Shown piece after piece: positions 15,691 to 33,819 of a stretch of DNA of 64,000 bases. The notes under the pieces are model-generated. The model did no database searches and was not told where the DNA came from. It worked only from the letters and a program-made list of their open reading frames with translations. The DNA lies in contig WRKJ01000109.1 of NCBI GenBank assembly GCA_009778135.1, positions 1-64,000 of the forward strand. The letters are read 5' to 3'. Each line of letters begins with the position of its first letter. The stretch's first letter is position 1. This stretch comes from Defluviitaleaceae bacterium. GTDB lineage: Bacteria > Bacillota_I > Bacilli_A > MOL361 > Turicibacteraceae. The translations under genes were made by a program, and so were the position numbers.

Positions 15691-15852
15691 ATCTTATCAA
15701 GAGTGACTGAGGGACAGGCCCAGAGACGTCACGGCAAACGGCCGCAAAGCGTTTGTAGCAAGCGAATTCATGCAGTGAATGATGTGCGACAATGTTGACA
15801 ATCGGCACGGTGCCAATACCTGATTGATGGGAGAAGTACGCATAGATGTCTT
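15691..15852 (+). promoter_or_regulatory. SAM-I (S-box) riboswitch with an enlarged P3 arm
   Basis: The conserved S-box elements appear in order: CTTATCAAGAGTG, GAGGGACAGGCCC, ACGGCAAACGGCCG and CGGTGCCAATACC, ending in an AGATGTC segment near the terminator. With high S-adenosylmethionine it should favour termination and lower metA-metI-metC expression. The P3 arm, closed by GCCG/CGGC, spans about 65 bases and is larger than in the commonly known Bacillus examples. P1 pairing is imperfect. Confidence 0.93.
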
Positions 15853-27069: not shown

Positions 27070-28437
27070 ATGAATGTGAAAAAGAAAGAATATGACTTAA
27101 CAAGTGGACGTATTTTAAATAAACTGCTGTTAATTGCGGGTCCTGTTATGGCAACGCAGCTCTTTCAAATGGTGTATAATTTAACGGATATGTTTTTTGT
27201 GGCGAGAATTTCAAGTGATGCCGTGGCGGCCACAGGAGCAGCTGGGATGTTTATTTGGTTATCGGTTGCTTTTTTTGTCATTGGTAGCATGGGTGCAGAA
27301 ATTGGTGTTTCACAAAATAAAGGAAAAGGCGATGTGGTGACAGCGAAACGATTTGCTCAGAATGCGCTCTTTATCGCCCTTGTTTTAGGGCTCTTTTTTG
27401 CTGGCATCATGGTCTTGTTTACTGACTTTTTTATTGGATTGATCGGCATTCAAGAAGCACATGTGGCCCGTGATGCAGCCCTTTATTTGCGCATTGTAGG
27501 TGCTGCTTTTCCCATGTTATTTGTCAATAACGCCATTACCGGTGCATTTAATGGTTCGGGAAATTCCAAACTCCCTTTTTATTTGAAAATGATGGGTCTC
27601 GCTGTTAATCTGATCGTCACGCCCTTTTTGATCTTTGTACTTGACTTTGGGATTAAAGGTGCCGCTATTGGAACTGCCATTGGCTATACAGTGACCGGTG
27701 CTTTACTTGTCGTTGCGATTAAACATCCAAAGACATCTCCTTTTCCTGATTTTAGTTTTAAAGCAGTGTGTTGTCCAGACAAAAAGACAGTGCGTCAAAT
27801 TTTAAAGTGGAGCTTGCCGGTTGCCATTGAAAATGGCTCATTTACGATGTTAACCATGTTGATTGTTAATATGATCGCAAACTTTGGCGCAGATGCACTG
27901 GCAACGAAACAAATTGGTGTTCAAATTGAATCTTTAACATGGTTGGTGGGTGGTGGCTATGCAGCTGCCTTGACTTCTTTTGTTGGCCAAAACTACGGTG
28001 CCAATCAAATGGATCGGATTCAAAAAGGCTTTAAAATCTCATTTTTTGTCCAAAGCTTATGGGGGATTTTGGTGACGTTGATCATGTTTTTCGGTGGCGG
28101 TCTCATCTTCCGTCTGTTTACGGATGACCTAACCATTATTGAATCTGGCATTCGCTATTTGCGCATTGCCGCTTTTGTTCAAATCATCAGCTGTATTGAT
28201 GCCATTTGTGCCGGTACATTTCGAGGACTTGGCCAAACAATTCAGCCTTCAGTGACAACCATCACCTTCAACATTTTGCGCGTTTTCATTGCTTTTGCTT
28301 TGTCACAAACAGCCCTTGGCTTATATGGTGTTTTCATCGGTGCGGCGTCAGGGATTTTCTTTCGAGGTCTTGCGATTTTCATCTGGTACGGGCTATATAC
28401 CCGTAAACACTTTAAAAAAATTGAAACGACGGTTTGA
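27070..28437 (+). CDS. MATE-family multidrug/cation antiporter
   Basis: A 455-residue inner-membrane exporter with about twelve hydrophobic segments in two similar halves, as expected for MATE proteins. The N-terminal region (LTSGRILNKLLLIAGPVMATQLFQMVYNLTDMFF, quoted here as spanning residues 8-41) is typical, and the repeat in the second half begins near KKTVRQILKWSLPVAIENG. It belongs to the DinF/NorM-like class that couples export of cationic compounds to Na+ or H+ influx; the substrate cannot be told. Overlapping palindromes after its promoter hint at local repression. The gene stands alone. Confidence 0.9.
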   Translation: MNVKKKEYDLTSGRILNKLLLIAGPVMATQLFQMVYNLTDMFFVARISSDAVAATGAAGMFIWLSVAFFVIGSMGAEIGVSQNKGKGDVVTAKRFAQNALFIALVLGLFFAGIMVLFTDFFIGLIGIQEAHVARDAALYLRIVGAAFPMLFVNNAITGAFNGSGNSKLPFYLKMMGLAVNLIVTPFLIFVLDFGIKGAAIGTAIGYTVTGALLVVAIKHPKTSPFPDFSFKAVCCPDKKTVRQILKWSLPVAIENGSFTMLTMLIVNMIANFGADALATKQIGVQIESLTWLVGGGYAAALTSFVGQNYGANQMDRIQKGFKISFFVQSLWGILVTLIMFFGGGLIFRLFTDDLTIIESGIRYLRIAAFVQIISCIDAICAGTFRGLGQTIQPSVTTITFNILRVFIAFALSQTALGLYGVFIGAASGIFFRGLAIFIWYGLYTRKHFKKIETTV

Positions 28438-28505
28438 CGAACAACGATTCGTTTAATCAACACCATCGGGTTGGAAAATGATCAAAATAGAAAGGTTGGA
28501 TTCAC

Positions 28506-28949
28506 ATGAAAATAATGGTACAGCGTGCCAAAGCTGCTAAAGTGCGCGTAGAAGGGAAGGTTGTGGGACAAATTGAACGTGGATTGATGTTACTCATTGG
28601 GGTGACGCATGAGGATGGGTTAGAAGATGTCACGTATTGTGCGAAGAAAGTGGCGAATTTACGCATTTTTGAAGATGAAATGGGGAAAATGAACCTGTCG
28701 ATTAAAGAAGTCGGTGGCGCTATTTTGTCTATTTCCCAATTCACTTTATATGGCAACACAGAAAAAGGGAATCGACCGAGCTATAGCGAAGCGGCACGCC
28801 CTGAAGTGGCGAAGCCGTTATATGATGCATTTAATGTCATGTTGCGCAACCATGGCATTCATGTTGAAGAAGGTCTCTTTGGTGCGATGATGGATGTTGA
28901 ATTCACAAATGAAGGACCTGTGACATTGATTGTGGCAAGTAAAAAGTGA
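28506..28949 (+). CDS. dtd: D-aminoacyl-tRNA deacylase
   Basis: Hydrolyses D-amino acids wrongly attached to tRNA. At 147 residues it has the standard length, with [14 protein letters not shown] at the start, the catalytic SQFTLYG motif, and the NEGPVT motif near the C-terminus that forms the other half of the active site. GAAAGG precedes ATG 28506. It lies 68 bases after the MATE gene and may be co-transcribed. Confidence 0.95.
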
Positions 28950-29018
28950 AGGTATATGTTTGCGTTAAATGTGTATACTAACGACATGATTTCAATTAGA
29001 AAGTGAGGAAGGCAACTT

Positions 29019-29156
29019 ATGAGCAAGAAAAAAGCAAATTTGACCTTAGATCCAACAACCCATCATTTGGATCCACAACCGGAAGAGCCTTGGTTAGGAA
29101 ATCCTGATGACCATGAACCGACGACAAAAGTGACGAAGGAAACGATCAATCCATAG
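29019..29156 (+). CDS. small 45-residue hydrophilic protein
   Basis: Begins MSKKKANLTLDPTTHHLDPQ and continues with an acidic, proline-rich chain (PEEPWLGNPDDHEPTTK). It has a good ribosome site (GAGGAAGG) seven bases before the ATG, follows dtd closely, and is followed by a strong terminator at 29257. It has no membrane segment or known motif. Function unknown. Its composition suggests a disordered protein. Confidence 0.55.
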   Translation: MSKKKANLTLDPTTHHLDPQPEEPWLGNPDDHEPTTKVTKETINP

Positions 29157-29256
29157 ATCGGGTAGTGAAAGAATTTCGCTTTCATTATCTTTGAGATTCT
29201 TTTCTCTCACGATCATAGACTTATTTCTACATTTTTGGATTATTTCCGAACAAATT

Positions 29257-29287
29257 AGCGACAGTGACAATGTCATTGCCGCTTTTT
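29257..29287 (+). terminator. strong intrinsic terminator
   Basis: GCGACAGTGACA pairs with TGTCATTGCCGC through G-T wobbles, followed by six T. Confidence 0.85.
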
Positions 29288-29528
29288 TGCTACGTGTTGA
29301 AAAAGAATGACGCTGTAACATGAGTACCTAGTACGTAAGCGAGAAAAAACAGACTGTATAAAAAAATTCCATCAAGTGTGCTAGAATAAACTTTAAGCCA
29401 CAAGATGGGATTTGTGTGTCATATGGAAGTCTGCTTGACAATGTCGTTTTACGGATTCAGTCCATGGTAAAAAGTTCTGCAAAAGAGCAGGATTGCGATG
29501 AAAATCCAGCTTAGGAAGGTTATCGAAT
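29288..29528 (+). other. intergenic stretch without a recognised gene
   Basis: Between the terminator and the ABC promoter no ORF with a ribosome site was found. It holds small hairpins only, such as CTGCAAAAGAGCAG near 29479. Confidence 0.6.
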
Positions 29529-29557
29529 AAATAATTGACAATATTTCTAAAATGTGA
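29529..29557 (+). repeat. 29-base direct repeat, upstream copy
   Basis: Matches 32103-32131 at 28 of 29 positions; key core TTGACAATATTTCTAA. This copy supplies the -35 box and spacer of the ABC promoter. Confidence 0.85.
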
Positions 29558-29563
29558 TAGAAT
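29535..29563 (+). promoter_or_regulatory. SigA-type promoter of the ABC cassette
   Basis: TTGACA, 17 bases, TAGAAT. The leader after it carries ATTGGT/ACCAAT as an inverted repeat near 29592. Confidence 0.85.
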
Positions 29564-29641
29564 ACTTCATAAAATGTCAGAAGATGTCAGAATTGGTCGT
29601 ATATAACCAATGAACTGGTAAAAATATGAAGGAGAAAACAG

Positions 29642-30376
29642 ATGCTACACATTAAAAACATCAAATATTCTTACGACAAAAAGAATGTTGTACTAAGTGA
29701 CATGAACTTTGAATTAGAGCAAGGCGAATTCCTAACCATTGCTGGACCAAATGGAAGTGGGAAAACAACGCTCATTAAGTTAATAACGGATTTACTGAAA
29801 ATGAAACAAGGTACGATCAGTATTGCTAGTATGCCGCATGATTTACCTCAAATCAAAAAGAAAGTCGTTTACTTATCCAGTGAAGATTATTTACCAGAAT
29901 TTCTTACAGGATTTGAATATGTCAAAATGCTGTGCGAGATGTATGACTGCCCTTTAAATAAGGAAGCAATGGATCGTTTAGCTCGTTATTATTCCCTTGA
30001 TAGAAAGTTGCATGAACTTATTGAGGGGTATTCACATGGCATGAAGAAGAAGATTCAATTGATGAGTGCTTTTTTGATCGAAGCGCCGCTCCTGATTATA
30101 GATGAAACATTAAATGGGATAGATGTCGAAGCAAAAGAAGCGACAAAATTACTTTTAAAACAGTATCAAAAAAACGGTGGTGCCATCATTTTTTGTACCC
30201 ATGATTTAGAGTTGGTAGAGGAAATTGGCGAACGGGTTATTTTAATTAACAAAGGTGAAATTCACATAGATGGTATGATTCGTGAGTTATTGAATGAGCA
30301 TCAAAGCTTGACGGAAGTCTTTAAACAATTAATCAATTATGAGGAGATGAAAGATGAAATTTCAAAATATTTTTAG
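29642..30376 (+). CDS. ABC transporter ATP-binding protein
   Basis: The 244-residue ATPase has Walker A GPNGSGKTT, signature-like YSHGMKKKIQL in place of LSGGQ, Walker B LLIIDETLNGID, and the H-loop in FCTHDLELVEEIG. The signature and size fit exporters of the ABC-2/bacteriocin-resistance type. AAGGAG precedes the start. Its last 23 bases overlap the permease gene, so the two subunits are coupled. The leader after the promoter contains short repeats that could bind a regulator; none is encoded next to it. Confidence 0.92.
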   Translation: MLHIKNIKYSYDKKNVVLSDMNFELEQGEFLTIAGPNGSGKTTLIKLITDLLKMKQGTISIASMPHDLPQIKKKVVYLSSEDYLPEFLTGFEYVKMLCEMYDCPLNKEAMDRLARYYSLDRKLHELIEGYSHGMKKKIQLMSAFLIEAPLLIIDETLNGIDVEAKEATKLLLKQYQKNGGAIIFCTHDLELVEEIGERVILINKGEIHIDGMIRELLNEHQSLTEVFKQLINYEEMKDEISKYF

Positions 30377-32145: not shown

Positions 32146-32183
32146 AAAAGACCTCTTTTTCAGTTCTGGAAGAGGTCTTTTTA
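32146..32183. terminator. bidirectional terminator
   Basis: AAAAGACCTCTT and AAGAGGTCTTTT form a long stem with A- and T-runs on both sides, between the ABC cassette and the convergent VanZ gene. Confidence 0.9.
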
Positions 32184-32218
32184 AAAATCTTCAATTCTTG
32201 TAGTGACATTTTCATTTC

Positions 32219-32275
32219 TTGTGGTATCATATGACTGAGACAACCTTTCTGTTTTTAGTGCGTGTGGTAACTATT
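32219..32275 (+). repeat. left arm of a long inverted repeat
   Basis: Pairs with 33345-33404. The core of 25 bases at 32231-32255 (ATGACTGAGACAACC...) is perfect. Similarity continues on both sides with small indels (GTATCA before, GTGCG..GGTAAC..CTATT after). Confidence 0.85.
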
Positions 32276-32282
32276 GTGTGAA

Positions 32283-32861
32283 TCATCTCACATAGCTTTC
32301 GATTTTTTGGAAAAATTTCATTTCTTTTGTAAACATTCCTACTATAAAACCCAATGTATTTCCAATAATATCAGCTAAATCAAAAATACCTAAAGCAAAG
32401 ACATATTGAATGATTTCAACAATTGTGATTCCAACGACAAAATAGACAACTTTCTTTGTGTTAAACATGAAGAGAAATCCAAAAGGAACAAACATCATGA
32501 TGTTTAAAAAAGCTATCCTTGTAAAAAAATCACTGAAAAAAGAAAATAGATGAGTTTCAAAGCCACTTGCACCTACTGTCATGAAGAAGAGCAAATAGCC
32601 TAATACAGAAAAATAGGCTGTATACGAAAGATAAACAGTCCATTTTGGAATTGTTTTCGTGTAGAAACTTTGAATGATGATGTATAACCAAAATGTAATT
32701 ATGAGAATATGCATGAAAGGAATCCAAAAGTCAACTTCCGGAACCGTTCTAAAAAATGTTAATAAAATGGGGTAGAAATAAGCCATATAAATCCATCGCG
32801 AGATGAGGAATGAGATGATGACTAATAACACGTGTATGAAAATTGACTTTATTCGATACAT
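32283..32861 (-). CDS. VanZ-like membrane protein
   Basis: A 192-residue protein with about five membrane segments. The VanZ hallmark is present: NIMMFVPFGFLFMF, then EIIQYVFALGIFDLADIIGN followed by a final hydrophobic helix. VanZ of enterococci gives low-level teicoplanin resistance, but most family members have no known role. It lies 6 bases after the small secreted-protein gene on the same strand, so they form a two-gene unit, and that unit is enclosed by long inverted repeats. An envelope-stress or antimicrobial-protection role is a guess. Confidence 0.88.
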   Translation of the reverse strand: MYRIKSIFIHVLLVIISFLISRWIYMAYFYPILLTFFRTVPEVDFWIPFMHILIITFWLYIIIQSFYTKTIPKWTVYLSYTAYFSVLGYLLFFMTVGASGFETHLFSFFSDFFTRIAFLNIMMFVPFGFLFMFNTKKVVYFVVGITIVEIIQYVFALGIFDLADIIGNTLGFIVGMFTKEMKFFQKIESYVR

Positions 32862-32867
32862 TTTAAC

Positions 32868-33296
32868 TTACCTAGGTCTCGTTACCGATCCACTAATATT
32901 AAAACGTTGAATATTACTCACATTAACCGTACTAAAATGTAGCCAATAAGTTCCCGCTCTTAAATCGCTAGCAAATGTTCCACTGGTTGTTCCAGTAAAA
33001 TTGCTTGTTGCCTCAGTTGTGGAGCCAATGAAAGCATTTCTAATAATGTGAACCCTCATCTGTGTACTTGTAGCAGTATTCGCGTTGTACCTTGTCTGGC
33101 TATGGTGCACTGTAAATCTTGTTCCATTTTGAGCAGCTGTTACTGTCCATTCATTAACAGAACGGAGGTTGTGAATACCTGTGCCATTATATGTTAAAAC
33201 TGTTGTCGTATTAGCATGAACAATTCTAACTACTTGTGGTAAAATAAAACTGAATGCTAGTAGTGTAAATGATAAGAATTTAAGTGTTTTTTTCAT
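32868..33296 (-). CDS. small secreted beta-rich protein
   Basis: A 142-residue protein with a signal peptide (MKKTLKFLSFTLLAFSFILP, cleavage probably after VHA). The mature part is rich in Thr, Asn and Ser, with alternating residues that suggest beta strands (TTVLTYNGTGIHNL, FTVHHSQTRYN, GTYWLHFSTVNVSN), and ends SVTRPR. No cysteine is present. GGAGG precedes the start by nine bases. A promoter lies about 130 bases upstream. It is the first gene of the unit with the VanZ-like gene. No family was recognised. Confidence 0.8.
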   Translation of the reverse strand: MKKTLKFLSFTLLAFSFILPQVVRIVHANTTTVLTYNGTGIHNLRSVNEWTVTAAQNGTRFTVHHSQTRYNANTATSTQMRVHIIRNAFIGSTTEATSNFTGTTSGTFASDLRAGTYWLHFSTVNVSNIQRFNISGSVTRPR

Positions 33297-33344
33297 GTTA
33301 TAAAACCTCCATTTTTTCGAAATACTAACTCAATTTTCCTGTCA

Positions 33345-33404
33345 AATAGTCGTTACCGCACTTATTAGAAAACAGAAAGGTTGTCTCAGTCATTGATACG
33401 ACAA
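33345..33404 (-). repeat. right arm of a long inverted repeat
   Basis: Reverse complement of 32219-32275; perfect core at 33369-33393. It lies in the leader of the secreted-protein/VanZ unit. Confidence 0.85.
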
Positions 33405-33424: not shown

Positions 33425-33454
33425 ATTTTATCATAAGACAGATATGAATGTCAA
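33425..33454 (-). promoter_or_regulatory. promoter of the secreted-protein/VanZ unit
   Basis: Reverse strand: TTGACA, 18 bases, TAAAAT. Confidence 0.75.
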
Positions 33455-33773: not shown

Positions 33774-33819
33774 TTTGACGTGCAAAGTCATGTTTCCTTT
33801 TGAAAGTTGAGGTTTTAAG

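Follow-up and report, generated by a model that had tools for sequence, protein, structure and literature searches.

Why should a pair of genes lie between long inverted repeats? In the 64-kb stretch of DNA analysed here (the window), arms at 32231-32255 and 33369-33393 are complementary at 25 of 25 positions across a spacing of 1,113 nt, and with gaps allowed their similarity extends over about 53-60 nt (87% for 32219-32271 against 33352-33404). The 25-base pair is the longest exact inverted repeat of the window. The longest in 25 Markov simulations, each of 64 kb with the dinucleotide make-up of the real window, was 17 bases. Thus, the arms of about 57-60 bases with a perfect 25-base core reported in the initial annotation are confirmed. 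The genes between them are likewise as first described, one VanZ-like and one for a secreted protein:

32283-32861, minus strand: VanZ-family membrane protein of 192 aa (PF04892, 34 bits against a gathering score of 30.1)
32868-33296, minus strand: secreted protein of 142 aa with a signal peptide and a predicted 8-strand beta sandwich

A whole-genome search located the arm once more, on contig C97, where this third copy forms the 5' leader and the start of a 447-aa transposase. The initial annotation was to fall if the arms occurred nowhere else and the locus was conserved in all relatives; since the arm does recur in the genome, it did not fall on that count. Further fragments of the element elsewhere in the genome were limited to chance-level matches, the arm was not found in the plasmids searched, and a 20-mer of it was not found in the viral contigs searched.

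The C97 copy belongs to an intact insertion sequence (IS) of 1,634 bp (28273-29906), bounded by the terminal inverted repeat CTCAACTTTCGCA at both ends and by a 7-bp target duplication, TTCTTAA. Against NF049925, the NCBIfam model for the IS4 family, its transposase scored 516 bits (cut-off 250); it carries the YREK motif Y(2)R(3)E(6)K as YGYRWNIEIFFKCNK at residue 318. Published criteria for the ISPepr1 subgroup are ends of the form YT-AA-YTT---A, direct repeats of 7-8 bp and a size of 1,500-1,600 bp (PMC2266710 Table 1). The C97 ends read CT-AA-TTT---A and agree with this pattern, as does the length of the duplication, while the element is slightly larger than the published range. Judged by sequence, the C97 element is therefore of the IS4 family, and its ends, duplication length and YREK motif fit the ISPepr1 subgroup.

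Related IS in G006, Alicyclobacillus, Geobacillus and Enterococcus hirae share the same terminus, and most of them have a leader hairpin at the same place. The 3' half of this inverted repeat holds the likely ribosome-binding site of the transposase. Predicted leader folds reached -14.6 kcal/mol in C97, -24.7 in Alicyclobacillus and -19.2 in Geobacillus; in G006 the repeat was identified by eye, and folding was uninformative for E. hirae. The IS10 and IS50 leaders impose an analogous block on transposase translation from read-through transcripts. By this analogy, the leader hairpin would block translation of the transposase from such transcripts.

Both window arms align with this leader segment:

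32187-32273, minus strand: left arm, IS4-family leader fragment (93% identity to the C97 IS, E 1.4e-30)
33328-33404, plus strand: right arm, IS terminus-like sequence and leader fragment (84% identity to the C97 IS, E 7e-12)

The left arm corresponds to nt 148-234 of the 1,634-nt IS and so includes transposase codons 1-15 (MIPQEMKMSLQELKI, 32230 to 32186, minus strand). On the right, 33337-33404 corresponds to IS nt 135-202 on the plus strand, and directly inside that arm ACTCAATTTTC (33328-33338) matches the IS terminus at 10 of 11 positions, with a chance probability of about 3e-4 within 25 positions. Homology thus runs past the arms as first delimited, reaching 32187 at the left arm and 33328 at the right one. 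The early description of a unit free of transposase held insofar as no complete transposase lies inside and nothing of one is left in the unit beyond codons 1-15; those codons, overlooked at first, lie in the left arm itself. The relics are mutually inverted, with the transposase starts pointing outward and the IS left ends facing the cargo. By alignment, both arms are IS4-family insertion-sequence fragments. As pieces of an IS leader segment, the arms look like regulatory RNA; Rfam at gathering score gave no match at either. Elsewhere in the window, a SAM riboswitch (S box) lies at 15691-15833 on the plus strand.

Taken together, these results make it probable that the arms descend from two ISPepr1-type IS4-family copies in opposite orientation, each cut down to the transposase promoter and leader-hairpin segment and flanking a horizontally acquired pair of genes for a secreted protein and a VanZ-family protein. 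In the history that we infer, IS copies would have inserted on both sides of an imported pair, or would have carried the pair as a composite element, and the transposase bodies of both would then have been lost. What is left would be an operon that can no longer move, read from a promoter immediately beyond the right relic, and pairing of the arms in its mRNA would be a by-product of their IS origin. The predicted promoter is the best in the region and does sit just outside the right arm:

33425-33454, minus strand: predicted promoter of the two-gene operon, TTGACA-18-TAAAAT with a TG extension (11 of 12 consensus positions)

Of the 1,634 bp of the element, nearly the same 70-90 bp survive in the two relics. 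Random decay of two copies would not be expected to produce this; it counts against the IS-relic reading and is the strongest remaining reason for considering a functional role. Moreover, the 25-bp core shared by both window arms differs from the C97 IS at two positions. The two bases that the arms share against C97 may go back to a common source variant, or the core may have undergone gene conversion or been under selection.

The initial annotation offered a cargo-carrying non-autonomous element as one explanation. Its mobile-element origin stood, but outer termini, target duplication and further copies did not. Terminal inverted repeats are lacking at the outer ends of the unit: the clear terminus is the one at 33328, which faces inward, and no outer IS end was found on the left side. 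Flanking sequence offers one other candidate:

33799-33811, minus strand: possible second IS terminus CTCAACTTTCAAA with 2 mismatches, tentative, overlapping the lrgA ribosome-binding region

A match of this quality is expected by chance in about 0.5% of cases within 500 bp, and its overlap with the lrgA ribosome-binding region means that it may be a chance match. No convincing repeat was found as a target duplication (ATACTAA against GTTTTAA at the possible right relic), and no second copy of the unit was found elsewhere in the genome. The search for empty sites, also proposed at the outset, gave none, with no relative preserving the site in colinear form: the permease on the left flank is unmatched in relatives, and in G002, a relative from the family, the context of lrgAB differs from that in the window. 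Within G002, an lrgB-like sequence interrupted by several stop codons lies at 6962-7631 of contig C173 (L049-L051). The missing left outer end, target duplication and empty site count against the IS-relic reading too. By the standard of a composite transposon, two inverted relics do flank a cargo, both of them incomplete. The unit is an immobile relic, the wreck of a mobile element and not a working switch. The pair may have become bracketed through decay of a composite element, through two separate insertions, or as the cargo of an IS231-like element.

The last of these, a modular element like IS231 or the mobile insertion cassettes (MICs), is unlikely but survives best among the rivals. Here the pair would have been carried between the left terminus of a single IS and its transposase, which was later lost. 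The cargo would lie on the transposase strand, 33799-33811 would be the terminus, and the right arm would be an independent relic or would have arisen by inverted duplication. The vanZ gene, read on the minus strand, does stop some 10 bp short of the IS leader and transposase start, a position between left end and transposase at which IS231 elements carry passengers (PMC2266710), and the terminus-like CTCAACTTTCAAA lies upstream of the operon on that strand. However, this putative terminus may be fortuitous, given the lrgA overlap, a target duplication is again missing, and an inverted right arm with a terminus of its own is left unaccounted for.

Rather less likely still is a selected long-range RNA structure, in which the arms would pair the 5' and 3' ends of the mRNA and control its stability or translation, as in fold-back mRNAs. 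A second feature bears on the transcript ends:

32146-32181, unstranded: perfect 12-bp stem, T/A-flanked, a possible bidirectional terminator read from the sequence as an inverted repeat

This stem lies between a 105-aa gene on the plus strand and the left arm, and was not flagged by the terminator scan. With the predicted promoter and this possible terminator just outside them, the arms would lie near the ends of the mRNA. Their core is perfect over 25 nt, the duplex has a predicted energy of -70 kcal/mol, and 33415-33352 is paired with 32201-32271 when the complete mRNA is folded to its minimum energy. The earlier suggestion that the two ends could pair is thus borne out by strong predicted pairing. 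The long-range switch built on it is not: leaving the 3' arm out of the fold does not change the predicted unpaired probability at the first gene's ribosome-binding site, which is inaccessible in both cases, and a translational switch is therefore not supported. The arms are also fully accounted for as IS sequence. Pairing between them may nevertheless affect mRNA stability.

An invertible cassette switched by recombination between the arms, also raised at first, is highly improbable and was dropped: inverted repeats do bracket the operon, but no recombinase gene adjoins the unit, the promoter lies outside it so that inversion would only silence the operon, the arms are otherwise explained, and nothing else speaks for it.

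Relatives of both proteins encoded between the arms, searched separately by tblastn with the limits used, were found in the same three records only among 72,556 plasmids, all from Streptococcus: two 6.9-kb plasmids of S. suis and one 4.65-kb mobilizable plasmid of S. equi. An IMG/VR contig also carries relatives of both genes. In the records examined, identity to the window pair is 35-38% for the secreted protein and 37-39% for VanZ; over its full length, VanZ is 36-39% identical to its counterparts on the three plasmids. The two genes are adjacent in every record examined, plasmids and IMG/VR contig alike (window 32283-33296; L062 605-1606; L063 3580-4646; L064 635-1636), and their relative orientation varies, being on the same strand in the window, convergent in S. 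suis and divergent in S. equi. One S. suis plasmid, pT15_2 (L062, 6.9 kb), encodes Rep_1 and a second protein with a Zot-domain annotation; it is possibly a filamentous-phage-like element of a Gram-positive host.

By contrast with these distant replicons, the pair was absent from all family relatives searched, and neither gene had a close counterpart in genus or family; absence from the same-genus genome is weak evidence, given its completeness of only 75%. The further VanZ genes found in the class had no such secreted neighbour within the flanking stretches examined. A profile match to the secreted protein in G142 fell in an unrelated long protein resembling alpha-glucosidase and was taken as chance. 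We read the secreted-protein and VanZ genes as a mobile pair, probably acquired horizontally.

The 192-aa protein belongs to the VanZ family, scoring above the gathering threshold of PF04892, and scored 27.8 bits against the vanZ-A model, far below its cut-off of 250. VanZ (PF04892) is known for lipoglycopeptide protection, and most proteins of the family have no assigned function (PMC7146870). Its partner had no match in Pfam, PHROGs, PADLOC or PDB sequences. AlphaFold modelled it as a beta sandwich (pLDDT 74.6, from a two-sequence alignment), and Foldseek returned generic beta-sandwich matches only, with PDB TM-scores to the query of about 0.5 or less. As these matches are generic, no function was read from the fold.

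The cargo probably acts at the cell envelope. The function we infer as likeliest, though it falls a little short of an even chance, is that of a secreted antagonist accompanied by a VanZ-type protein for immunity or protection; the listed titles and abstracts offered nothing pertinent on VanZ as bacteriocin immunity. More tentatively, the pair may be an undescribed mobile two-gene cassette, joining a secreted antagonist or envelope protein to VanZ immunity or protection, which travels on small plasmids of streptococci, mobilizable ones or ones with Rep and Zot domains, and has entered this genome. If so, the existence of such a cognate partner would point to a role for VanZ proteins in nature. 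On unrelated replicons a VanZ subgroup is found with a secreted companion, and this companion is a concrete candidate, open to testing, for the target of such proteins. The repeats themselves are ordinary IS debris and the enclosed gene pair is the more interesting lead.

How does this locus compare with known elements? The C97 element shares with the ISPepr1 subgroup (PMC2266710) its end pattern, 7-bp duplication, YREK motif and a leader before the transposase, whereas the window keeps leader fragments only and nothing self-mobile. IS231/MIC231 elements and mobile insertion cassettes resemble the window in combining IS4-family ends with non-transposase cargo; however, in MICs the terminal repeats are outermost, whereas the one clear terminus at this locus lies innermost, and a target duplication is lacking. 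In Tn10 and Tn5, as in the window, cargo lies between two inverted IS4-family copies (IS10 and IS50, respectively). The transposase starts of Tn10 and Tn5 are at the outer ends, whereas those of the window are on the cargo-facing side and both copies are relics. Finally, the window VanZ-like protein and described VanZ (PMC7146870) are both membrane proteins above the Pfam cut-off, but known vanZ accompanies vanHAX whilst the window gene is paired with that of a secreted protein.
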